Shown: piece after piece, positions 2,837-21,669 of the stretch
Numbering within the stretch: position 1 is the first letter of the stretch
Layout of the letters: every line of letters begins with the position of its first letter
From: a virus
Length of the DNA: 22,634 bases
Strand: one strand, 5' to 3'
Virus record (IMG/VR): IMGVR_UViG_3300049846_000645
Location: 1-22,634 of that record
Notes under the pieces: generated by a model
The model's input: the letters and a program-made list of their open reading frames with translations, nothing else
The model's database searches: none
Told to the model about the DNA's origin: nothing
Position numbers and translations under genes: made by a program

Positions 2837-3688
2837 TTACGATTTGGTAAATAAATTATCAAATGCAGATGCAACATCATCTACCTTCGGTGCTGTTGCC
2901 AATGGTTTTGGGGCCACAGATTGTGTCTTTGTTGACACATTAACTTCAGGAAGAGCATCATGATTTGCAGGAGTTGTTCCATCTACTATAGCCATTACTG
3001 TTGCTATATCAGGATCTCCTGAGGGTTCTCCATTTTCAGGATGTAACCATGCATCCATTACCTCTTTCAATTCGTCGTAAGATAATTCAGGGAATAGATC
3101 CAAAATTCTAGTTTGGTTAGAAATTTTCTCTAACAATTCTCTGTTAGAAGGATCTACTGCTGGTTTTGTATTTGGTTTAACTCGAATAGCTGTTTCAGGA
3201 AATTGCTTTCCTGTTTCCTCCGCAGTTTTAAACTCTACAACAATATCACGTCCGTTAGCCAGATCTGTAATATCACCATAATCAGGATCGCTCATAATAG
3301 AAAGCAATTCTTGATACACTTGTTTTCCAAACCCCCAAAACTTAACTCCTTCATGCTCCAATCCTCTAACAACTACAGGAGCAAATGTCCTCATCTTAGG
3401 TTCAAGCTTCCTAGACAACTTCCATTCCTCTTTATCACCGCTTCTTTTCAACCGAGTTGCAAATTCAACAATTGGATCTGGTCGGCCAAAAGAATCAGGA
3501 GACAAATACGTTTTACCATTCAAGTTATAGTGAAACTTCAATTCAATAAACGGATTGTCAGGTTGAAACTTATATGGAACTATTCTAACTTCTTGTTTTC
3601 CAGGATTAGGCTTCCATAGAAGATTAGTTTTTTGGTTGGTGTTGGATAACGAATTTAAACGACTTTTAATTTTATTAATGTCTAACAT
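2837..3688 (-). CDS. gp32-like single-stranded DNA-binding protein
   Basis: This cooperative ssDNA-binding protein belongs to the T4 gp32 class, coating replication and recombination intermediates. The N-terminal segment INKIKSRLNSL is basic, as in the gp32 self-association region. The core holds the gp32-type stretch WKPNPGKQEVRIVPYKF, then FIELKFHYNL and APVVVRGLEHEGVKFWGFGK. The C-terminus after about residue 240 is Ala/Pro/Thr-rich and ends DDVASAFDNLFTKS, an acidic tail with aromatic residues as in gp32. Length (283 aa) is close to T4 gp32 (301 aa). The protein contains no cysteine at all, so the gp32 zinc site is absent. It is encoded directly upstream of uvsX, and its leader carries a hairpin and an A/U-only TTAAA tract described separately. 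Confidence 0.88.
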   Translation of the reverse strand: MLDINKIKSRLNSLSNTNQKTNLLWKPNPGKQEVRIVPYKFQPDNPFIELKFHYNLNGKTYLSPDSFGRPDPIVEFATRLKRSGDKEEWKLSRKLEPKMRTFAPVVVRGLEHEGVKFWGFGKQVYQELLSIMSDPDYGDITDLANGRDIVVEFKTAEETGKQFPETAIRVKPNTKPAVDPSNRELLEKISNQTRILDLFPELSYDELKEVMDAWLHPENGEPSGDPDIATVMAIVDGTTPANHDALPEVNVSTKTQSVAPKPLATAPKVDDVASAFDNLFTKS

Positions 3689-11719: not shown

Positions 11720-14608
11720 TTAACGTTGCATTGCACCATAGGTTCCACGGAAACTATTATTTCTATTCATTGTAGTACTAACCAATTGTCCATCAAGATT
11801 AACGGCGATTTTTCCATCAAGAAGATCTTTTCGGATATTTTTTAATTCTGTTAGAATAGCGGATTGCATTTCAGCTATAGATGTAGTATTTTCTTCTGTA
11901 GATTTAGAAGTTTGTTTTACTGAATCTTTTGTGATTCCTTTATCAAGTTCTTTATATGATTTTATTTCTGAATCAGATAATGCCTTATCTAATGGAATAT
12001 CTAAAGATGCTGCTTTAGCAGATAAAATAGGTTTTTCAATAGAAGCTTGAATTACTCTCTTGTTTCCTATAAAATCCCATATCTTTTTAAGAGGAGTTGT
12101 TATAATATTACCAATACCACTCCAAAGATCTATAATCCAATTATATGCACTTTTAAACGGAGATGTTAACAAATCAAATAACGTATTACCAACAAGTTTT
12201 ATACTGTTTATTATCAACATACCTGGTTTTGAATTTATAATCCATTTAAACATGTTTTTAAAAGGAAATATTAAATTATTAAATAACATTCCTCCTACAG
12301 CTTTTATTCCTTCCACAATTAAAAGTCCCATATAAGATGGTGACTGTCCTAATATATGTTCTTTAGCCCAATTCCATAAATCCACAAAAGGTTGAACCAA
12401 TACTTCATATAACGATTCTCCTATTGCCCAAAAGCCTGCCCATATTTTTTGTGCAAAGTTCATATTCGGATCATTGTATATTTTTATCAATCTTTTTGCG
12501 TATTCATATATAAATTGTAATCCTGATATAATCCAACCGATTACAGGAATTTGTTTTATGAATGGTCCTGCAAATTTAATTACTCCAAATAATCTACCCA
12601 CAAGCGTAAATATTTTTCCTAACCATTGAAACTTTGTTCCTAATGTTGTAACTACATCGACAATTTTATGAAAATAGTTAACAAGATGTAATCCTATTAC
12701 ATTTTTTGGTATTTTAGATAATGCTGCAGAAATTAAAGAAAATGGGATCATCATTCGCATACCAATTCCGATTAATGGTGTTAATGCAGCAGCAATTTTT
12801 AAAACATTATCAATTATAGGTAAAAACTGATACCCCAATTCCATTACAACTTTCTTGTAAGAATTTGTTATAGAAGTTAATCTATCTTGATTTTCTCTTG
12901 TTTTTAATATATAATTGGCATCTTCTCCTCTAGCCCTAGCTATAGATTCACTGGCCTCTTTCATTTTTTCTAAATCTCGTAATCTTTTTGCAATGCTTGG
13001 ATCTGTAGATGCTTTTTGTCTTAAAAGAATATCTTCTCTATTTGCTTGTAACATTGATTTCAATTCACTTACTGTTTTCCCTGTAGCTCTCGCAAAAGCT
13101 TCAGCAGTAAATGGATCTAAATGATCGAAATCTATTTGTTTAGAAATTCTTAATATTTCTAAATTGGCCTCTTTTATTTTTCCTGCATAAGATAACTGTC
13201 TAGCTAATTGTAAATTAATAGGTCTTCCTAATAAAACCGAAGCTTCCATTTCAGATTCCATAGATTCGGTAAAATTCAAAATCTTTCTAGAAGATTCTGA
13301 CATTTTATCTAATGTCGTTCCTAATCTACGAGCTTCTACAGCCGCTTTCATCATGTCTAATGGAGTTTTTGCAAACATTATACGAGTCGTTTCCGATGCA
13401 TTTGCGATATCTTGCATTACTTGAGGAAGAGGCACTCCAGATGCATTAGACAATTCTCTAACGAATCCAGACATGGATATTTGAGCATTAGCAGTTGTTG
13501 AAAACATTTGTCCCATATTTTTCAACATTTTAACAGTGGTTTCTTCAGCTATACCAAATTGAGACGACATCAATGAAGTTTGTAGAACTATATCTTCTGT
13601 TGCAGATAAAGTTGATCCTAATTCTAATGCGATTTGTTTTTGGGATCTGTATACATGATCAACAGCTACTCCTAAATTAGCATATTTTTTATATAAATCT
13701 TCGGCTTGAGATCTTAGAACCTGATGTTCTTCTCTCATCATACCCATTTCTTTTCTAGCTTTAAAAGCTTCTTCATCTAATTTTTTGAAAAGATTCCATG
13801 ATTCTGATAATAATTTTGTTATTCCTACTAACGTAAATAATACAGGACCACTCATTAACTTTGCTATAAGATTTGTTTTAATTCCAGAAGCTTTTAATAA
13901 AGCATCTAATAGATCTATTTTACTTACAACTTTTTGTACTATGGCTTTTTGTTTAAACCAATTTTCAATTTGTAGTTTACCGCCTTCTATATATTCTTTT
14001 TTTAATCGATCTTGTTCTCGTAATATTTCCAATTTATCATACTCAATTTTTCTTTCTAAATCCAAAATCTGAGCATACCTCATCATAGCTATAGTTTTTT
14101 GACGAATGTTTTTATTTGAAACTAATACTCTATTTAATGATACACCCTGTATTTGTGCCGCTTTGTTTAAAATTGCAAGATCCTCTTTCGAAATGGCTTT
14201 AGAATGAACTTGTGCATCTCTTATTTTACCCCATATCTTAACCAAATCCAACATTGCTTGTTGAGATTCTTTTGTTTTAAGTAAATCTTTTGATCTTTGT
14301 GAAATTTTTTTCTGATTTAAAAGATCTAATTGCGTTTCGTTTTCAAGAAGTCGTTGGTTTCTTTTTAAAATATTATTTTCAAGAAGGTTTGTTTTCTGTG
14401 AGTTAGTTTCTGATTCTTTTTGAAGTCTATTTGTTAATGCTTTTGCTATATTAATTTCTTTTAATATTTCATATTGATGAGCTAAAATTTTAGCTTGTGC
14501 TTCCAATGAATCTACCAAATTCTCTTGCAGATGTTTTTCTTCATCTAAAAGAGAATTAAGCTCCCTAATATGAGATGCGATTTTATTTGTAGGAGTTTTA
14601 TTTGCCAT
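11720..14608 (-). CDS. tail tape measure protein
   Basis: This 962-aa protein spans the lumen of the tail during assembly and sets its length. The first ~230 residues are long charged heptad-like helices. Hydrophobic stretches capable of crossing membranes lie near residues 250-265, 593-630 (LTPLIGIGMRMMIPFSLISA) and 663-703 (FGVIKFAGPFIKQIPVIGWI). Residues ~730-840 hold three imperfect 35-40-residue repeats around (L)-x3-PF-x4-(W/F)-x-W-(A/I). The middle (MSSQFGIAEETTVKMLKNMG, FARATGKTVSELKSML) is typical of tape measure proteins of T4-like marine phages. It is preceded by a gp26-like/frameshift chaperone pair, which is the conserved position for tape measures. The family rule of about 0.15 nm per residue gives an expected tail near 140 nm if the whole protein is extended. 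Confidence 0.88.
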   Translation of the reverse strand: MANKTPTNKIASHIRELNSLLDEEKHLQENLVDSLEAQAKILAHQYEILKEINIAKALTNRLQKESETNSQKTNLLENNILKRNQRLLENETQLDLLNQKKISQRSKDLLKTKESQQAMLDLVKIWGKIRDAQVHSKAISKEDLAILNKAAQIQGVSLNRVLVSNKNIRQKTIAMMRYAQILDLERKIEYDKLEILREQDRLKKEYIEGGKLQIENWFKQKAIVQKVVSKIDLLDALLKASGIKTNLIAKLMSGPVLFTLVGITKLLSESWNLFKKLDEEAFKARKEMGMMREEHQVLRSQAEDLYKKYANLGVAVDHVYRSQKQIALELGSTLSATEDIVLQTSLMSSQFGIAEETTVKMLKNMGQMFSTTANAQISMSGFVRELSNASGVPLPQVMQDIANASETTRIMFAKTPLDMMKAAVEARRLGTTLDKMSESSRKILNFTESMESEMEASVLLGRPINLQLARQLSYAGKIKEANLEILRISKQIDFDHLDPFTAEAFARATGKTVSELKSMLQANREDILLRQKASTDPSIAKRLRDLEKMKEASESIARARGEDANYILKTRENQDRLTSITNSYKKVVMELGYQFLPIIDNVLKIAAALTPLIGIGMRMMIPFSLISAALSKIPKNVIGLHLVNYFHKIVDVVTTLGTKFQWLGKIFTLVGRLFGVIKFAGPFIKQIPVIGWIISGLQFIYEYAKRLIKIYNDPNMNFAQKIWAGFWAIGESLYEVLVQPFVDLWNWAKEHILGQSPSYMGLLIVEGIKAVGGMLFNNLIFPFKNMFKWIINSKPGMLIINSIKLVGNTLFDLLTSPFKSAYNWIIDLWSGIGNIITTPLKKIWDFIGNKRVIQASIEKPILSAKAASLDIPLDKALSDSEIKSYKELDKGITKDSVKQTSKSTEENTTSIAEMQSAILTELKNIRKDLLDGKIAVNLDGQLVSTTMNRNNSFRGTYGAMQR

Positions 14609-14624
14609 ATAGTATTACTCTCTT

Positions 14625-14632
14625 TATAAATA
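14625..14632 (-). promoter_or_regulatory. TATTTATA element upstream of the tape measure gene
   Basis: The minus-strand sequence CTATTTATAAAGAGAG ends 16 bases before the ATG at 14608. The adjacent GAGAG may also serve as a weak ribosome binding site. It lies just past the hairpin at 14638-14664. Confidence 0.4.
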
Positions 14633-14637
14633 GTTAT

Positions 14638-14664
14638 AAACAATAGATTTTTTATCTATTGTTT
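14638..14664 (-). terminator. hairpin between frameshift frame and tape measure gene
   Basis: An 11-bp perfect stem (AAACAATAGAT at 14638-14648 with ATCTATTGTTT at 14654-14664) has a 5-base loop. On the minus strand it is followed by TATAACTATTTATA rather than a T run. It lies about 20 bases after the TAG stop of the +1-frame extension. A partial terminator followed by a fresh promoter element would separate chaperone and tape measure expression; this is inference. Confidence 0.4.
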
Positions 14665-14683
14665 TAAATAAAAAGACAAAATA

Positions 14684-14908
14684 CTATTTTTTAGAAATAG
14701 AATTCTGAGATTTTTCTGCTGATTCTATAGAATCTTTTTCTTCTTCTTTAGCTTTAACCAGACATTTTGTATAAAAATGTCTTAAATGAACAGGAAGTTC
14801 ATATACTTGAGGAATAGTGATTGCTCCTTGAGAATAATAGGCTAAATCGAAACACTGTTTATGGATTAAAATTCGGTCTTCAGGCTGAAGGCCAAAAAAA
14901 GGATACCG
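14684..14908 (-). CDS. +1-frame extension of the gp26-like gene: tail assembly chaperone C-terminal part
   Basis: An open frame runs from just after the TGA at 14911-14909 to a TAG at 14686-14684 and contains no ATG, GTG or TTG codon at all, so it cannot start by itself in the normal way. Entered by a +1 (or -2) shift at the T7 run (14900-14894), it adds 69 residues, beginning GLQPEDRILIHKQCFDLAYY. The core IPQVYELPVHLRHFYTKCL has the shape of short tail-chaperone helices, and the end is highly charged (KAKEEEKDSIESAEK). The fused product would have 370 residues. Its position immediately upstream of the tape measure gene is where gpG/gpT-type frameshift chaperones lie in other tailed phages. 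The coding character and the missing start are seen; the frameshift itself is inferred. A sequencing indel is the alternative. Confidence 0.65.
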   Translation of the reverse strand, partial: RYPFFGLQPEDRILIHKQCFDLAYYSQGAITIPQVYELPVHLRHFYTKCLVKAKEEEKDSIESAEKSQNSISKK

Positions 14909-15797
14909 TCATCGGTATCTCCATCCTTTCTGAGTGATCGCAATGTGGACAAATAAAATCAAACGTCATGTCCATATCTGGAATATTAGCTCTAATATGT
15001 TTCCTAAGTTCTAATGCGTCTTTTGAAACCAACTCTGTTTCAATAAACTTGCGAATAGCAACTTTATCATCATCACCGTCAACAGATTGAATTACATATT
15101 TCAATCTTGTAGTGACCTCAGAAGATCTTTCTTTATTAACCCTTGATAAATTCTTGATTTCAACATCAACCATATTATCTTCTTTTTGGGTAAGTATTTT
15201 ATAAGAAATTAACTTTTTAGAATATGGTAATGTAAAATTAAATATGTTTTGTCCTCTTGGATAGTTTTCAAACTCAAACGGTCGTGGTTCAAGTTTACCT
15301 AAATCAACTGTATGTTGAGACTCTTCCCCACATGTCGGACATTTAATTTTTAAAGGTCCGTATTGATCACCATAAGCTAATCGTCTTACTGCAACAAAGA
15401 TTCCATTCATGTCGCATAACAGAATATCATCTTGTTTAACTTTTTTATCTACAATTAAAGAATCCAGCAATTTTTGAAGCACGATTCCTTTTTTAATTAA
15501 ATTTTGGGATGTTAAAATATCTTCTTCTCTGGCGGTCATCATTTTAATTTCTATTTTTCCTGATGACAGAGGGTGTCCTTGTGGATAAAACCAACCTTTA
15601 GATGGTAATTCAACCACCTCAGTAGGATATGTTATTTTCTCTACAAATTGAGAAGGTATTTCATTATATTCTTCCGAAGGAGGTTGTGGTGTTGTTTGTG
15701 ATAATTTACCTTCTTTTTCCAACACTTTTTGTACTACTGGTGGTATATGTGAATGTTGTGTAGAAGGTCTAGTAATTGGGATTGTATTTTCGTCCAT
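14880..15797 (-). CDS. gp26-like T4 baseplate-family protein with zinc ribbon (zero-frame product)
   Basis: The 305-aa product belongs to the T4 gp26-type baseplate family. Its family region starts at VVELPSKGWFYPQGHPLSSG and continues KIEIKMMTAREEDIL. Two CxxC pairs, C153/C156 (CPTCGEE) and C283/C286 (CPHCDHSE), can form a zinc ribbon split by a beta-rich insertion. The N-terminal 50 residues are Pro/Thr/Ser-rich and probably flexible. It ends MTVSFFWPSA, and its last codons overlap the TCC TTT TTT TGG slippery site. In T4 the homologue helps assemble the baseplate hub; here the location right before the tape measure suggests a chaperone whose longer frameshift form binds the tape measure. 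The start is preceded by AGGTT, one of the few Shine-Dalgarno-like sites here. Confidence 0.82.
   Translation of the reverse strand: MDENTIPITRPSTQHSHIPPVVQKVLEKEGKLSQTTPQPPSEEYNEIPSQFVEKITYPTEVVELPSKGWFYPQGHPLSSGKIEIKMMTAREEDILTSQNLIKKGIVLQKLLDSLIVDKKVKQDDILLCDMNGIFVAVRRLAYGDQYGPLKIKCPTCGEESQHTVDLGKLEPRPFEFENYPRGQNIFNFTLPYSKKLISYKILTQKEDNMVDVEIKNLSRVNKERSSEVTTRLKYVIQSVDGDDDKVAIRKFIETELVSKDALELRKHIRANIPDMDMTFDFICPHCDHSERMEIPMTVSFFWPSA
14894..14903 (-). promoter_or_regulatory. slippery sequence for candidate programmed frameshift
   Basis: In the mRNA the zero frame reads UCC UUU UUU UGG. A tRNA-Phe on the second UUU can slide one base forward and keep full pairing, after which GGC CUU CAG CCU continues in the open +1 frame; the -2 direction reaches the same frame. 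A -1 shift would lead to a different frame. The zero-frame stop UGA follows four codons later, so the short product keeps only WPSA after the site. Confidence 0.6.
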
Positions 15798-15855
15798 AAC
15801 CTATTTAATATTTAATTGTCTTCTTATATATATAAAGAAGAGTTAAATAATTTCA
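15798..15855 (-). promoter_or_regulatory. AT-rich gap with palindrome before the gp26-like gene
   Basis: The 58-base gap holds an inverted repeat of TCTTCTT and AAGAAGA around an alternating TA centre, about 25 bases upstream of the ATG. The TTATATATATAA centre could serve as a -10 region or the arms as a short hairpin. No TATTTATA octamer is present here. Confidence 0.3.
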
Positions 15856-16764
15856 TTATACCGCTTTTTTTAATTGTTGAATATCTTTATTAATAGATGG
15901 GATAACAAATCGTGTTTGATAATCAGTTTTTTGTTTTTGGAAATCTCGTTCTTTTTTAGCTGTTTTTAATTCTGTATCTTTTTGTTTCAATAAATTTGCT
16001 GCTTGTGCTCTTTTTTCTCTATCATCTTCTTCTGAATTTTGAACATTAGATATAGAATTTGAAGGGTCTGTAGTGTTTGAATCTGATTGGGGTGTAGATA
16101 ATTGACCTAAAACTTGTTCTACTATTTCTTTTATAAACGGTTTTAATGTTCTTCTGATAATAGGAGTTTTAGATTCTGTGACCCTTTCTTTAACAGTACC
16201 AGCTTCAGAAAACTTCTTTTTTAACAAATCAAAAAGAGATATATCATACCAACCAAAAAGTTGTTTAAATACAGACTTTTTCTTTTCATCATTTAAATTT
16301 TTAGATCCAAATATTTTTCTAAGAGTTGATGGATTTAATTTTTGATTTATATATAAAACTTCATCAGGAATACTTAAAATATATCCCTTTTTATTTAATG
16401 GTTCCATGTTTGGTGTTAAACCTGTAAATGGAACAAAATAACCATTTGGATTTCTTAAAGCCATTGTGGCTTCTTTGACTGTCATTGCAAATACAACGAC
16501 AGTCCGATCCGCTCCAAACTTTTGTGTTATTTCAACCGCTTTTACAGGATCTTTAGCAAGTATTACTTTATCAACAGGAACTCCATGTTTAACCCAAATG
16601 TTTTGTTTATCTTGAAAGGTCAATGGAGAGTTAGGCAAATCTACCGTATCATTTGTTGTAATAAACGTGTTTGTCCCAGTATGACTTTTAAGCATTTGAT
16701 ATGCTCTATAATTACCTTCTGTAGGAGGTTGAAACCTGCCTGGATATATGCCAATTATATTCAT
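15856..16764 (-). CDS. nucleotidylyltransferase-fold protein with degenerate HxGH motif
   Basis: Residues 1-150 match the NMN adenylyltransferase/cytidylyltransferase fold: IIGIYPGRFQPPTEGNYRAY at the start, an Asp/Lys-rich middle (VPVDKVILAKDPVKAVEITQ) and LNPSTLRKIFGS (143-154) in the place of the ISSTxxR motif. The signature H-x-G-H is T15-E-G-N18 here, so both catalytic histidines are lost while GRFQP is kept. The C-terminal half has SKTPIIRRTLKPFIKEIVEQ, a Ser/Asn/Pro linker and a long charged coiled coil (about 245-302). Because it sits between the tail tube and the chaperone/tape measure genes, it may have a structural or nucleotide-sensing role rather than catalysis. It lies 61 bases after the tube gene. 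Catalytic loss is seen; the role is inferred. Confidence 0.75.
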   Translation of the reverse strand: MNIIGIYPGRFQPPTEGNYRAYQMLKSHTGTNTFITTNDTVDLPNSPLTFQDKQNIWVKHGVPVDKVILAKDPVKAVEITQKFGADRTVVVFAMTVKEATMALRNPNGYFVPFTGLTPNMEPLNKKGYILSIPDEVLYINQKLNPSTLRKIFGSKNLNDEKKKSVFKQLFGWYDISLFDLLKKKFSEAGTVKERVTESKTPIIRRTLKPFIKEIVEQVLGQLSTPQSDSNTTDPSNSISNVQNSEEDDREKRAQAANLLKQKDTELKTAKKERDFQKQKTDYQTRFVIPSINKDIQQLKKAV

Positions 16765-16825
16765 TTTTAATATATAGTATTAAACTCATTACCAATATAC
16801 TTTATAGTAATTGTTTAAATCAATA

Positions 16826-17317
16826 TTAATATTGAAGAATGCAATAATCTACAGATAATGTTACAGTTACTCCTAAAGCATCCCCATCATTTGTCCAATC
16901 CACGTTTCCAAAGTCTGCATTAAGTGGAAAAGCTCCAACTAACTTCCATTCTTCTACTTTATCTCCAACAGGACCAAGGACGTTTATTATAAGATCTTTT
17001 TTATAAAAATCCATATATCCATCACGGCCGGTTACGGATTCATGTGAAAGACGTACCCATTCCATAACTGCTTGTGCAGCTGAAGGAACAATTGGATCGT
17101 ATAATTCCATTGTAATTTCTTGCCATGTTGTTTTGCCCTTGTAATATCTTTGTAAGTTAATGTGGTCAAGAGCTTTTCTTGGACTTTGTACTTTTGGTCT
17201 ATCTGTTTTACGGATAGTAAAAGCAGGAATTCCATCTATATACATTATAAACCTATTTTGCGTTTTAGGCTCAAATGCTGTAAAAAACGCTTCTTGTGCT
17301 TCAATTAATTCTGCCAT
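16826..17317 (-). CDS. tail tube protein (gp19-like)
   Basis: This 163-aa protein has the length of T4 gp19 and its strand pattern. The N-terminal part has EPKTQNRFIMYIDGIPAFTI, then PRKALDHINLQRYYKGKTTW and the beta-loop-beta EITMELYDPIVPSAAQAVMEW. The C-terminal half has GYMDFYKKDLIINVLGPVGD, then EEWKLVGAFPLNADFG and the closing strand VTVTLSVDYCILQY. It polymerises into the inner tube through which DNA passes. It follows the sheath and the nucleotidyltransferase gene. A purine-rich AGAGAG precedes the ATG by about 6 bases. Another open frame at 17032-17235 is a shadow of this gene. Confidence 0.92.
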   Translation of the reverse strand: MAELIEAQEAFFTAFEPKTQNRFIMYIDGIPAFTIRKTDRPKVQSPRKALDHINLQRYYKGKTTWQEITMELYDPIVPSAAQAVMEWVRLSHESVTGRDGYMDFYKKDLIINVLGPVGDKVEEWKLVGAFPLNADFGNVDWTNDGDALGVTVTLSVDYCILQY

Positions 17318-17407
17318 AAATTTTCTCTCTTTCTGTTGCCTTTTACGGTCATAAAATAAATATAATTAACTCCATATTAAAATATCAAAATTATTTTATA
17401 TTTACTA

Positions 17408-17423: not shown

Positions 17424-18230
17424 TTATCTTTTCCTCATTAAATTAAGTTGATTTTGATAATAATTCTTTTCGTGGTTTCCATCTGAAGAAAATAATGAAA
17501 CACCTACAGTAGCAGAAGGATTTGGACCAAATGATGTTGGATCATACCCATCTTTAAGCGATAATTCTTTATTTTGTAAAATTACTATGGCATCTTTTAA
17601 CTTTTTAATAATATTTTTTTGCCTTAAAATTTTAAATACTATGTTTTCTGTTGAAAATTCCCCAGAGCTTGATAAGCCTGATTCTCTCATATTAGTTAAA
17701 TGTTTCATTACATTTTTAATTTTATCAATATCATTGGATTTAAGAGCTAAAGCAATCTTATTTACTAAATTATAATATTTCGACTTTATAAGCGGTTTAT
17801 TTAATACTATGTTTTGAGGCATAGCTTTTTTAATCCATTTATCTTGCAACAATGAATAAACCCCTGTAGCTCTATTTTCTTCATCAACATCTTGTATATA
17901 AAGTTCAACCTTATGTCCTTTAATAAAAATATCATGTTCACTATTCCATTTTTTAGCTAATAAACTTGTAAACTCTTTAGCTAATTCAGATGTCATTGGT
18001 AATTCTTTTAAATCAACAAGTATATGAAGATCGCAATCTGAAGTAGGCGACCAGTTATAATTAGCAGATGAACCTAAAAAATATATATCCTTAATATTTA
18101 TATCAAGCTTGGAATCTTTAAAAAAAGAATAAGCTATTTTTAATAAAGCATTTTTTATTTCTACTTTTAATTTTTTATCTTTATCCCAAAACGTAGGATT
18201 GAGATTTTTATTATAGATTATTATCTTCAT
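17424..18230 (-). CDS. DNA polymerase beta-type nucleotidyltransferase
   Basis: This 268-aa protein carries the nucleotidyltransferase superfamily signature IYFLGSSANYNWSPTSDCDL followed by HILVD. It includes the GS motif (G53-S54) and the two metal-binding Asp residues D65 and D67. A third acidic residue, E109 in GHKVELYIQD, is at the expected place. Residues 125-230 are helical and rich in Lys, and the final 40 residues (GYDPTSFGPNPSATVGVSLF) are probably flexible. Such enzymes transfer nucleotides to RNA, proteins or small molecules; the substrate cannot be read here. All three acidic positions are kept, so it is likely active. It lies alone between the sheath terminator and the tube gene, with a TATTTATA element 5 bases before its ATG. 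A tail role is not obvious. Confidence 0.82.
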   Translation of the reverse strand: MKIIIYNKNLNPTFWDKDKKLKVEIKNALLKIAYSFFKDSKLDINIKDIYFLGSSANYNWSPTSDCDLHILVDLKELPMTSELAKEFTSLLAKKWNSEHDIFIKGHKVELYIQDVDEENRATGVYSLLQDKWIKKAMPQNIVLNKPLIKSKYYNLVNKIALALKSNDIDKIKNVMKHLTNMRESGLSSSGEFSTENIVFKILRQKNIIKKLKDAIVILQNKELSLKDGYDPTSFGPNPSATVGVSLFSSDGNHEKNYYQNQLNLMRKR

Positions 18231-18483: not shown

Positions 18484-21400
18484 TTAAGCTCCTGGGAAAC
18501 TAGCTCCAGTTGGTAATATATTGAAATCAAGTATTATAAATTCAGCAGTTTTTGCTGGTTTCAAATAAATCTGTCCATAGAGAATATTTCTATCAACTAT
18601 GTCAGGAGTATTATTTGTTTCATCCATGACAACTTGGAAAGCATATAATCCACTTCTTTGTTGTATGCTTTCAAGATAAGGATTGACTATTGCTAAAAAC
18701 TTATTACGTGTTGAAGCAACATTCTGTTCGAATACCAAGTATTTAGCTGTGGAAGCAAAGAACTTTTTGATAGCAATTAACAATCTTCTGACATTAACTC
18801 TATCCAAAGCAGATGCTTCGTTTTGAAGTGTTTTTTGACCCCAAACACATATTCCTTGACCAGGGAATGCTGCGATTGGATTTACTTTACCTTCATACAA
18901 AGTATCTCTTTCTTCATGTGTAGTTCTATCACATACTTGAACAGCCTGTGTAATTCCACCACGGTTTAATCCAGCAGGAGCAAACCATTCAGCAGAAACT
19001 TTATCATTTGCTGCATAAACTGCTGGTAAAACAACAGACGGAGGAACTGTTATAATTTTATTAGTATTAGTGTCAAGAATTTTAATCCATGGATAATAAG
19101 CAGCAGCATAATTTGTATCATACTGCGAAGCATAGTAAACAGCATTATCAATTTGACCAACAGAACCTTCGGTTGCTGGTGTTACATGAAGATCCATGAT
19201 ATAGAAACAATCTCCACGTTTTTCACACATTTCAACTACTAAATTAGTAACGTATGAGTGATGTTCATGAACAATACCAGGCAATGCGATTAAATTAATA
19301 TCAAATTCGTCAGCATTTCCTAAAGCAGCTATACATTGTTTATATGCTATAGAACCTGCCGAATTAATATCTGTGCAATCCAACCCTTGAGTATTTCCAG
19401 GTATAATATCAGATCCAATATTTATTGGAATTGATGGAGATTGTCCATCAAATCCTCCTTGGAAGCCGACCACAAACTTACGCATTTTTACAATAGTAGT
19501 TTCATCAGAACGAGCAATAAACGGAATAGAACCGCTTAATGAATCTTCTAAATATGAACCTGTTGATGCGGGAGCATCAAATCCCCAATCTGCAATAGTT
19601 TGATCAAGAGCAAACACTGTATTACGACCTATGCTTGGATATGCTCCAAAACTTGGTAATGGTGCGAAATATTGCTTATTATCATCCGAAACACCATTTC
19701 CAGTAGAAGAGGTTGGATATAATGCGGAGAGTTCAGCATCTGCACCTGTAGGAGCATCATTGAATGCTATTCCAGATGGATATTTTCCAGGATCTACACC
19801 GTAGATAGATGCTCTAGTATATCTCATTGGAACAACCCAATGTGCCATTGAACTATTAATAGGAACAGACAACGCCTCAAATCCAGCTGGAACAGCTGAT
19901 AGTGCCCATGGATTAGTTGACATTTCAATTCTAACATATTTACTTAAATTAGTATATGTTCCAAATTCAATTATTTTACCAGCAAAATTGATGTAGTTAT
20001 ATCTATCACCAATCCTACGAGCTATATAATTTGAAGAATCAGGATCCAAATTCAAGTTTTGGAAAGTTTCCAATATTTTTGGTCTTTTATCAGTATCACT
20101 ATATGCTCTGATAGTAAGTGTGAACGATCCCCAATCACTTCCTGGAACTTGACCTGCTAATTTAACATTAGATATTTCAACTTTATAAGAAGTGTTAGTA
20201 TTTGTTCCATCTGATAAAGTGTGAACTTTAAACAAACGATATCTAGTTGGAGCCGAGGTTCCATCCCATGAAGCTACAGCTTGAGAAATAATCCAAGGAG
20301 TAGTTGCGTGGGTTACACTAAACTCCGAATCGCCGTTATTTAAATCTCTTGAATAATCATCGGTGAAATCTAATGGTGAACCTGCCCAAAGAGCCGATCC
20401 ATTAGGAAGATACGATCCACTAATAAACCATTTAGTATTTTCAGAAGAAACTTTAGCAAGTTGATTTTCAAAAACTTTATATAAATAAGCAGCTTCTATT
20501 TTTTGTCCTCTTGCAATTTCATCAGGATCACCAGCAGTAGCATCTTTACCAAATACATTTGTTATGAATTTTGGAGATGAAGGATCTATTGAAAATGCAT
20601 AAGTTCCATAAGCCGTTGAACTGTTGGATGATTTTAACCAAATAGCAAAATCTTTTGATATAGATGAACTATTTGAACCAATCAATACCGAATGACTTAA
20701 TTGACCACTGTTAGGACCTTGATAAAATAAAGATCCGGAAAATCCAGGAGCGATTAAATCAGAAATAGTAGCATATTGTGTATCAGCTAATACTGCCAAA
20801 ACTCTGTAATCAGCACCTGAAGATGTCCATTGATTAGTACAAACATCTAATACTGGATCTGTTCCAGTCGGAGTAAATTTTCCACTATAAGGTCCAAAAA
20901 ACCCATTCAACGAACCACTCATTAACAAACTGTAATTAGAACAATTGCTAAGTTTTGCTGTGGTTAAAGATCCACTCCAAGTGAATGTTCCATCAAAAGG
21001 ACTAGAACCATTGCCTGTAAAAGATATATATCCAATAGAGGACGAAAATTGTCCAGCTGCAATAGATCCGGTAATTTTGTCGTATAGAGTTGATCCTGTA
21101 CTAAACCCAGATCCACCGATTCTTAATGAGTCAATATTTATAGCCCCAAAAGCTTGAGTAGTTCCATAATAAAGGGAATTACTAATTATATCGGTAGCTG
21201 TAGATCCAAAAGTTAAATTTGCTGCAGAAAAATTAATTCTAGCATTTGTTTCGGTTCCATATGCCGACGATACCGTTAAAATAGAAGAACTAACTAACAA
21301 ACTTCCGGTTGCTGCAATTCTTGCATAAGTTCCTTTTAAGGCCCATATAACAAATGGGTAGTTTTGTTTATAACCTGTCAATGCTCCTACACGACAAACA

Positions 21401-21669
21401 GTTACAACGCCTCTTTCCAAGAGGTATTCTTTGGCGGTGTATGGTCCATAATAGACTCCATCGGCAACACCGAATTTACTTTCTAATGTATTAACGTCAG
21501 TGATTAGAGTTGGCGTAAAAGCTGGTCCTTTCGGAAATGGTGCTACTATAGCTCCACCGATATCAGCAACTCCTTGTGCTATACCTGACAAATCATTTTC
21601 CCGAGTGAAGACGCCTGGACTTACAATTCTATCAACTGGACTGAATCTTCCACCTTCTGTGATTGGCAT
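18484..21669 (-). CDS. tail sheath protein (gp18-like), enlarged
   Basis: This is the contractile sheath subunit. The N-terminus, SPGVFTRENDLSGIAQGVAD and then GAIVAPFPKGPAFTPTLITD, is the sheath arm and first domain. The C-terminus, AANDKVSAEWFAPAGLNRGG, then VNPIAAFPGQGICVWGQKTL, SALDRVNVRRLLIAIKKFFA and a final QIYLKPAKTAEFIILDFNI, is the conserved domain that packs on the tube and contracts. Length is 1061 aa against 659 for T4 gp18. The extra sequence lies between about residues 115 and 700 and is rich in Gly, Ser, Thr and short beta-type stretches, so it probably forms added surface domains. The ATG is preceded by AAAGGA at a good distance, the clearest ribosome binding site in the window, as expected for an abundant protein. 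A terminator follows. Confidence 0.93.
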   Translation of the reverse strand: MPITEGGRFSPVDRIVSPGVFTRENDLSGIAQGVADIGGAIVAPFPKGPAFTPTLITDVNTLESKFGVADGVYYGPYTAKEYLLERGVVTVCRVGALTGYKQNYPFVIWALKGTYARIAATGSLLVSSSILTVSSAYGTETNARINFSAANLTFGSTATDIISNSLYYGTTQAFGAINIDSLRIGGSGFSTGSTLYDKITGSIAAGQFSSSIGYISFTGNGSSPFDGTFTWSGSLTTAKLSNCSNYSLLMSGSLNGFFGPYSGKFTPTGTDPVLDVCTNQWTSSGADYRVLAVLADTQYATISDLIAPGFSGSLFYQGPNSGQLSHSVLIGSNSSSISKDFAIWLKSSNSSTAYGTYAFSIDPSSPKFITNVFGKDATAGDPDEIARGQKIEAAYLYKVFENQLAKVSSENTKWFISGSYLPNGSALWAGSPLDFTDDYSRDLNNGDSEFSVTHATTPWIISQAVASWDGTSAPTRYRLFKVHTLSDGTNTNTSYKVEISNVKLAGQVPGSDWGSFTLTIRAYSDTDKRPKILETFQNLNLDPDSSNYIARRIGDRYNYINFAGKIIEFGTYTNLSKYVRIEMSTNPWALSAVPAGFEALSVPINSSMAHWVVPMRYTRASIYGVDPGKYPSGIAFNDAPTGADAELSALYPTSSTGNGVSDDNKQYFAPLPSFGAYPSIGRNTVFALDQTIADWGFDAPASTGSYLEDSLSGSIPFIARSDETTIVKMRKFVVGFQGGFDGQSPSIPINIGSDIIPGNTQGLDCTDINSAGSIAYKQCIAALGNADEFDINLIALPGIVHEHHSYVTNLVVEMCEKRGDCFYIMDLHVTPATEGSVGQIDNAVYYASQYDTNYAAAYYPWIKILDTNTNKIITVPPSVVLPAVYAANDKVSAEWFAPAGLNRGGITQAVQVCDRTTHEERDTLYEGKVNPIAAFPGQGICVWGQKTLQNEASALDRVNVRRLLIAIKKFFASTAKYLVFEQNVASTRNKFLAIVNPYLESIQQRSGLYAFQVVMDETNNTPDIVDRNILYGQIYLKPAKTAEFIILDFNILPTGASFPGA

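Follow-up and report, generated by a model that had tools for sequence, protein, structure and literature searches.

Probable +1 ribosomal frameshifting beside a conserved upstream hairpin in gp26-family genes of T4-related phages

How could an open frame be translated that contains no start codon, lies across the end of a gene resembling T4 gp26 and closes shortly before a putative tape measure gene? The question is raised by the minus strand of the window, by which we mean the whole stretch of DNA analysed here (22,634 nucleotides), and the answer that we favor is a slip of the ribosome by one base.

The gp26-family gene and its start-less tail

The gp26-family gene of the window (14880..15797, minus strand), present in single copy in this 22.6-kb record, encodes 305 amino acids with two CxxC pairs. 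It matches the PF12322 T4_baseplate family (E 2e-14, 54.2 bits against a gathering cut-off of 24.5) as well as PHROG 150 baseplate hub, and we regard its product as the candidate short form of a tail assembly chaperone (TAC-N). The gene ends in ACG GTA TCC TTT TTT TGG CCT TCA GCC TGA, where UGA (14880..14882) is the 0-frame stop and UUU UUU UGG (14892..14900) is the shift site, delimited from the sequence, the site alignment of 126 loci and a re-pairing test; a run of seven U (U7) occupies 14900-14894. The last column of the PF12322 profile aligns to residue 302, so that the end of the profile coincides with the shift site. When the sequence was read directly, all coordinates of the original prediction held: the gp26-like frame ends just past UCC UUU UUU UGG, and the +1 frame runs without a stop from 14908 as far as the TAG at 14686-14684 (74 amino acids plus stop) and contains not one ATG, GTG or TTG. 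Its part past the shift (14684..14893, minus strand), hereafter the tail or TAC-C, comprises 69 amino acids plus stop, and a gap of 75 bases separates it from the ATG of the tape measure gene at 14608. The joined product, the long form (TAC-NC), is predicted to have ~370 amino acids. The -1 frame of the window meets a stop at 14866.

In the window, as in annotated phages, the gp26-family gene and the tail are placed between the tail tube and tape measure genes. The upstream tube gene (gp19-like, 16826..17317, minus strand) matches PHROG 4542 with E 1.1e-19 and PF06841 with E 5.9e-5, the latter under the family cut-off. The next gene (11720..14608, minus strand, 962 amino acids) matches TMP_3 weakly (E 0.41) and is putatively assigned as tape measure by its position and size; in Flavobacterium phage immuto and Listeria phage LIS04, the gene at the same place is annotated as tail tape measure. 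Three neighboring genes deserve a remark. An ORF between the tube and chaperone genes (15856-16764, N-terminus MNIIGIYPGRFQPP) has a weak CTP_transf_like match (E 0.014), an odd location for a nucleotidyltransferase-like gene; another (17424-18230), between sheath and tube, carries the nucleotidyltransferase-like motif GSSANYNWSPTSDCDLHILVD; and the tail sheath itself (18484-21669, 1061 amino acids) contains large insertions relative to the 496-position PHROG 23 profile. No tRNA genes were found in the window.

One IMG/VR scan with a single sequence, two with profiles, and a set of annotated phages yielded 126 non-redundant loci, which are interrelated, so that counts over them are not independent. 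The +1 tail occurs at the same place in 125 of the 126, one of them running off its contig. In these 125 loci the 0 frame closes a few codons past F-F/L-W/Y-P, and the +1 frame follows the pattern FFGL..(E/D)Y..........Y..P..LR.FY. Substitutions in the tail fall on +1-frame codon positions 1, 2 and 3 in the numbers 937, 563 and 2008, a third-position excess similar to that of the 0-frame core (1390, 895 and 2886), which bears out the claim that the 69-residue tail is coding. Because 125 of 126 relatives share the offset, despite differing lengths of the T run, and the tail substitutions follow the +1 codon phase, both an assembly indel and a decayed frame are excluded. Neither a continuous gene, nor an indel, nor a start codon of the tail's own came to light among the relatives. 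At the level of sequence, the +1 recoding event is real and conserved, and it lies in a known kind of gene; the proposal of a programmed shift by which a start-less C-terminal domain is added to a gp26-family short form is thereby supported. The long form is absent from the existing annotations that we inspected (Mel-JY01, immuto, SP-15, GXN1 and LIS04): the downstream frame is annotated as separate small ORFs in the first three and carries no annotation in GXN1 and LIS04.

The shift site and the hairpin upstream of it

The site itself varies within narrow bounds. The 126-locus alignment contains 80 cases of TTT TTT TGG CCT, 20 of TTT CTT TGG CCT, 10 of TTT TTT TAC CCT and 3 of TTC TTT TGG CCT, the remainder being single variants such as TTC TTT CGT. 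The last was found near 3209-3217 of L015 (PQ819873.1, GXN1) and resembles the +1 motif UCC UUU CGU of influenza PA-X (PMC7230728). Flavobacterium phage immuto has TTT CTT TGG. Re-pairing in +1 is possible at codon 1 or codon 2 in 125/125 of the +1 loci, and the variants TTC TTT TGG, TTT CTT TGG, TTT CTA and TTT TTA all retain it. Where codon 2 encodes Phe, it is TTT in 72 of 73 cases (expected ~52). Nearly all loci place UGG or UAC in the 0-frame A site, neither of them a stop codon or an obviously starved one. Since the site of the window permits both +1 and -2, its +1 direction is taken from the relatives.

Immediately 5' of the site lies a feature that the original prediction had missed, a 7-bp hairpin (GATACCG-ATGA-CGGTATC; 14902..14919, read 14919-14902 on the minus strand), whose 3' end is separated from the U7 by a single C and which we propose as a +1 stimulator. 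Against synonymous-codon shuffles it has a z of -5.6, and 0 of 200 shuffles were as stable. By the same kind of shuffle, the mean z of the upstream hairpin over the 125 related loci is -1.48, with 59 at p<=0.05 and about half not significant, and control windows within the same genes have a mean z of 0.04. The hairpin ends 0-4 nt 5' of the shift codons in relatives; among the first 79 loci, 49 of the 50 stems of at least 5 bp ended at this distance from the site. Furthermore, two aligned groups show covariation in which both sides of a pair have changed, with scores that none of 500 shuffles attained in either group and that lie well above those of slid versions. The hairpin accounts for a skewed choice of codons just before the site: in 64 of 74 loci (expected ~13) a C or G directly precedes the shift codons, and a Gly codon at -3 is GGG in 19 of 36 cases, against a background of 4%. 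An Rfam search gave no match above chance. Our results indicate that the hairpin is conserved beyond synonymous codon choice, which is a new observation. As far as we can tell, the +1 direction within the gp26 family is also new, but it is above all the conserved upstream hairpin that is.

Two further elements were seen near the site. A strong downstream hairpin is present in 23 of the 125 loci, instead of or besides the upstream one and mostly where the latter is weak (Fisher p 0.01); in L032, L040, L045 and L030, for example, it spans bases +10 to +45 past the site, and in the window itself it is not significant. A downstream pseudoknot lowered +1 shifting in 70S work (PMC6321510). In addition, most relatives have a purine-rich, Shine-Dalgarno-like stretch (GAGGAG) 23-31 nt 5' of the first shift codon, where pairing with the anti-Shine-Dalgarno sequence peaks above the synonymous expectation (z about -12). 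We rejected an internal Shine-Dalgarno as stimulator, since 23-31 nt is too distant for a push of the RF2 type; part of the signal may come from the hairpin's 5' arm.

A probable ribosomal slip and its alternatives

We consider it likely that the two frames are joined by a +1 programmed ribosomal frameshift next to an E-site-adjacent hairpin, so that one gene gives both a short and a long tail assembly chaperone (TAC-N and TAC-NC). Most ribosomes would reach the UGA and release the short gp26-like form. A minority at UUU UUU UGG would slip one base forward, with peptidyl-tRNA-Phe re-pairing from UUU to UUU in the +1 frame and GGC as the next codon (in some relatives tRNA-Leu on CUU might re-pair instead), and would translate 69 further codons into the long form. 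The hairpin would refold in the ribosome's wake, with 1-4 nt between its 3' end and the two shift codons, and probably aids the forward slip in the role that the Shine-Dalgarno duplex beside the E site plays in the RF2 gene. Presumably the two forms would then act like lambda gpG and gpG-T, loading the tape measure protein and recruiting subunits of the tube. The frames, their conservation, the pattern of the site and the conserved hairpin are observed; from them we infer a ribosome rather than an RNA polymerase as the slipping machine, the function of the hairpin, the efficiency and the chaperone role.

On balance we lean, by a modest degree, towards a broader reading in which a large T4-related clade makes its long chaperone through a +1 shift driven by a co-translationally refolding hairpin behind the E site. 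This would be a natural, conserved form of an effect that, to our knowledge, is otherwise documented for engineered reporters alone. Engineered upstream hairpins adjacent to the site raise +1 and lower -1 shifting in both 70S and 80S systems, and the stimulatory hairpin mimics the Shine-Dalgarno duplex of the RF2 gene (PMC6321510, PMC3639245); in the 70S system, hairpin-driven +1 shifting was found solely in the absence of RF2 (PMC6321510). Existing reporters could be used to test the upstream hairpin, which would be a naturally occurring stimulator of +1 shifting.

The strongest alternative is stem-loop-mediated transcriptional slippage, in which the hairpin, as it forms in the nascent transcript, would act on RNA polymerase at the U7 and some transcripts would lose one U. 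The hairpin passes directly into the U7, with the look of an intrinsic terminator, and a precedent exists in a Roseiflexus IS (Penno 2015, via PMC5009743), whose transcripts lack one base and whose inverted repeat lies 5' adjacent to the slippage motif, as in the window. The homopolymer on which such slippage depends is, however, not retained throughout: the T run is of at most 4 (mostly TTTCTTT) in 26 of the 125 loci, where realignment would be mismatched, yet the +1 tail is kept and the hairpin is equally strong (15 at p<=0.05). That hairpin strength is unaffected by an interrupted run argues against slippage of the polymerase. Moreover, the downstream hairpin of some loci would be of no use to a nascent RNA, and several gp26-family phages have a heptamer for ribosomal -1 shifting at the equivalent position (see below). 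Given the interrupted T runs, the -1 heptamers and the results with engineered hairpins, we prefer +1 ribosomal shifting and regard transcriptional slippage as unlikely.

The hairpin and U run could also serve as an intrinsic terminator or attenuator and have nothing to do with the change of frame. They do fit the terminator pattern and are the sole terminator-like element in 14300-17400, but such patterns were no commoner there than in shuffles (1 observed vs 1.2). Termination at this point would give mRNAs lacking the stop codon, the U runs of many relatives are interrupted, and the conserved +1 tail would be left unexplained; we judge this reading very improbable. About as improbable is a tail made as a separate protein, whether begun within the +1 frame or re-initiated at the 0-frame stop. 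In its favor, short ORFs have been called at this place by annotators, and the tails of several relatives contain an ATG, GTG or TTG. However, no such codon occurs in the tails of the window, L021 and L039; between the site and the LPxxLR motif, start codons are lacking in 39 of 74 loci; and the conserved FFGL at the tail's beginning lies upstream of most candidate start codons. A -2 ribosomal shift with the junction FFF/GL, of a kind known for the phage Mu chaperone and the second half of the original "+1 (or -2)", is feasible at the U7 of the window but deserves next to no credence, as -2 re-pairing is impossible in six relatives whose tail lies in the same frame and a single +1 rule covers all 125.

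T4, -1 relatives and other recoding systems

T4 has long been listed as an exception to frameshifting in tail chaperones, and G-T type frameshifting has been described as widespread "except T4" (PMC5009743). Both T4 gp26 and T4 gp51 are full-length PF12322 matches; gp26 terminates at the equivalent FF, and gp51 continues with an extension. A profile comparison (hhalign) of the +1 tails with gp51 C-termini plus -1 tails gave a probability of 68%, E 4.8e-5 and a score of 26.2, against maxima of 14.8 in 60 column shuffles and 9.9 in reversed profiles; against the T4 gp51 C-termini alone, the +1 tails gave no significant match. The end of gp26 at FF, the run-on of gp51 and this profile match suggest that T4 splits into two genes what the phage of the window seems to make from one: T4 has a short gp26 and a long gp51 without a frameshift or a shift site at gp26. 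Separate short and long chaperone genes in T4-like phages are attributed to Vladimirov et al. 2022 (Virology 566:9) in the accounts of that work in PMC10885494 and PMC12846349. The proposed tie between the T4 hub assembly factors and the frameshift chaperones was thus right in substance and, to judge from those accounts, largely known.

The canonical -1 heptamer, usual though not universal in frameshift tail assembly chaperones, is absent in the window. The gp26-family phages S-PM2, OLIVR5, ZPAH1 and LR756511 have U UUU UUC at the same place, and poly-T -1 signals are mentioned in summaries of Vladimirov, Gautam and Davidson 2022 (PMC10885494, PMC12846349). In S-PM2 (gp26 and "gp51"; L110, 472-1364), OLIVR5 (L111, 5980-6860) and ZPAH1 (L112, 5923-6876), a short tail ORF follows gp26 directly, before or near the tape measure gene, as in the window, but these tails are in the -1 frame and that of the window is in the +1 frame. 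The ORF annotated "gp51" in S-PM2 is the tail alone (about 58 amino acids). The nearest -1 outlier of the +1 clade is L016 (LR756511.1, a 595 kb uncultured phage), which at ~3285-3567 has GG[T TTT TTC] and a -1 tail. In a tree the +1 phages were separated from T4 as well as from three of the -1 phages (support 100/99), with long branches that make the order of changes unsafe. The gp26 family seems to hold three solutions, a +1 shift, a -1 shift and separate genes, and the evolution of recoding might therefore be traced within one gene.

Several known systems resemble the window in part. Lambda gpG/gpG-T (Xu, Hendrix, Duda 2004; PMC5009743) likewise makes a short and a long product from a single gene that lies between those for the tube and the tape measure; the window differs in its +1 rather than -1 shift, its T4 gp26 zinc-ribbon family and its hairpin upstream of the site. 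At the CUU U site of E. coli prfB (RF2), a P-site CUU/UUU slips to UUU with a duplex just 5' of the E-site codon, as proposed here, but prfB combines a Shine-Dalgarno duplex with a UGA stop and the window a hairpin with a sense codon. The haloviruses HF1 and HSTV-2 have a tail chaperone pair that needs a +1 shift near TTT-CGC (PMC7230728), comparable to TTC TTT CGT in L015, and the HSTV-2 shift has been described as "very likely +1" (PMC5009743). These are archaeal viruses for which PMC7230728 describes no upstream hairpin, and the likeness drawn here concerns the presence of such a gene pair and its site.

Predicted structures were obtained by folding core and tail separately with AF2. The core model (pLDDT 92.5) has BFVD matches to gp26/gp51-family proteins. 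A PDB fold search with it returned nothing significant, and its comparison with HK97 gp13 (2ob9; TAC-N fold) fell below significance (E 3.2, probability 0.23). The tail model (pLDDT 83.8) is all helix, and its weak matches are mostly small phage proteins, with a tape measure chaperone of Moogle at rank 14.
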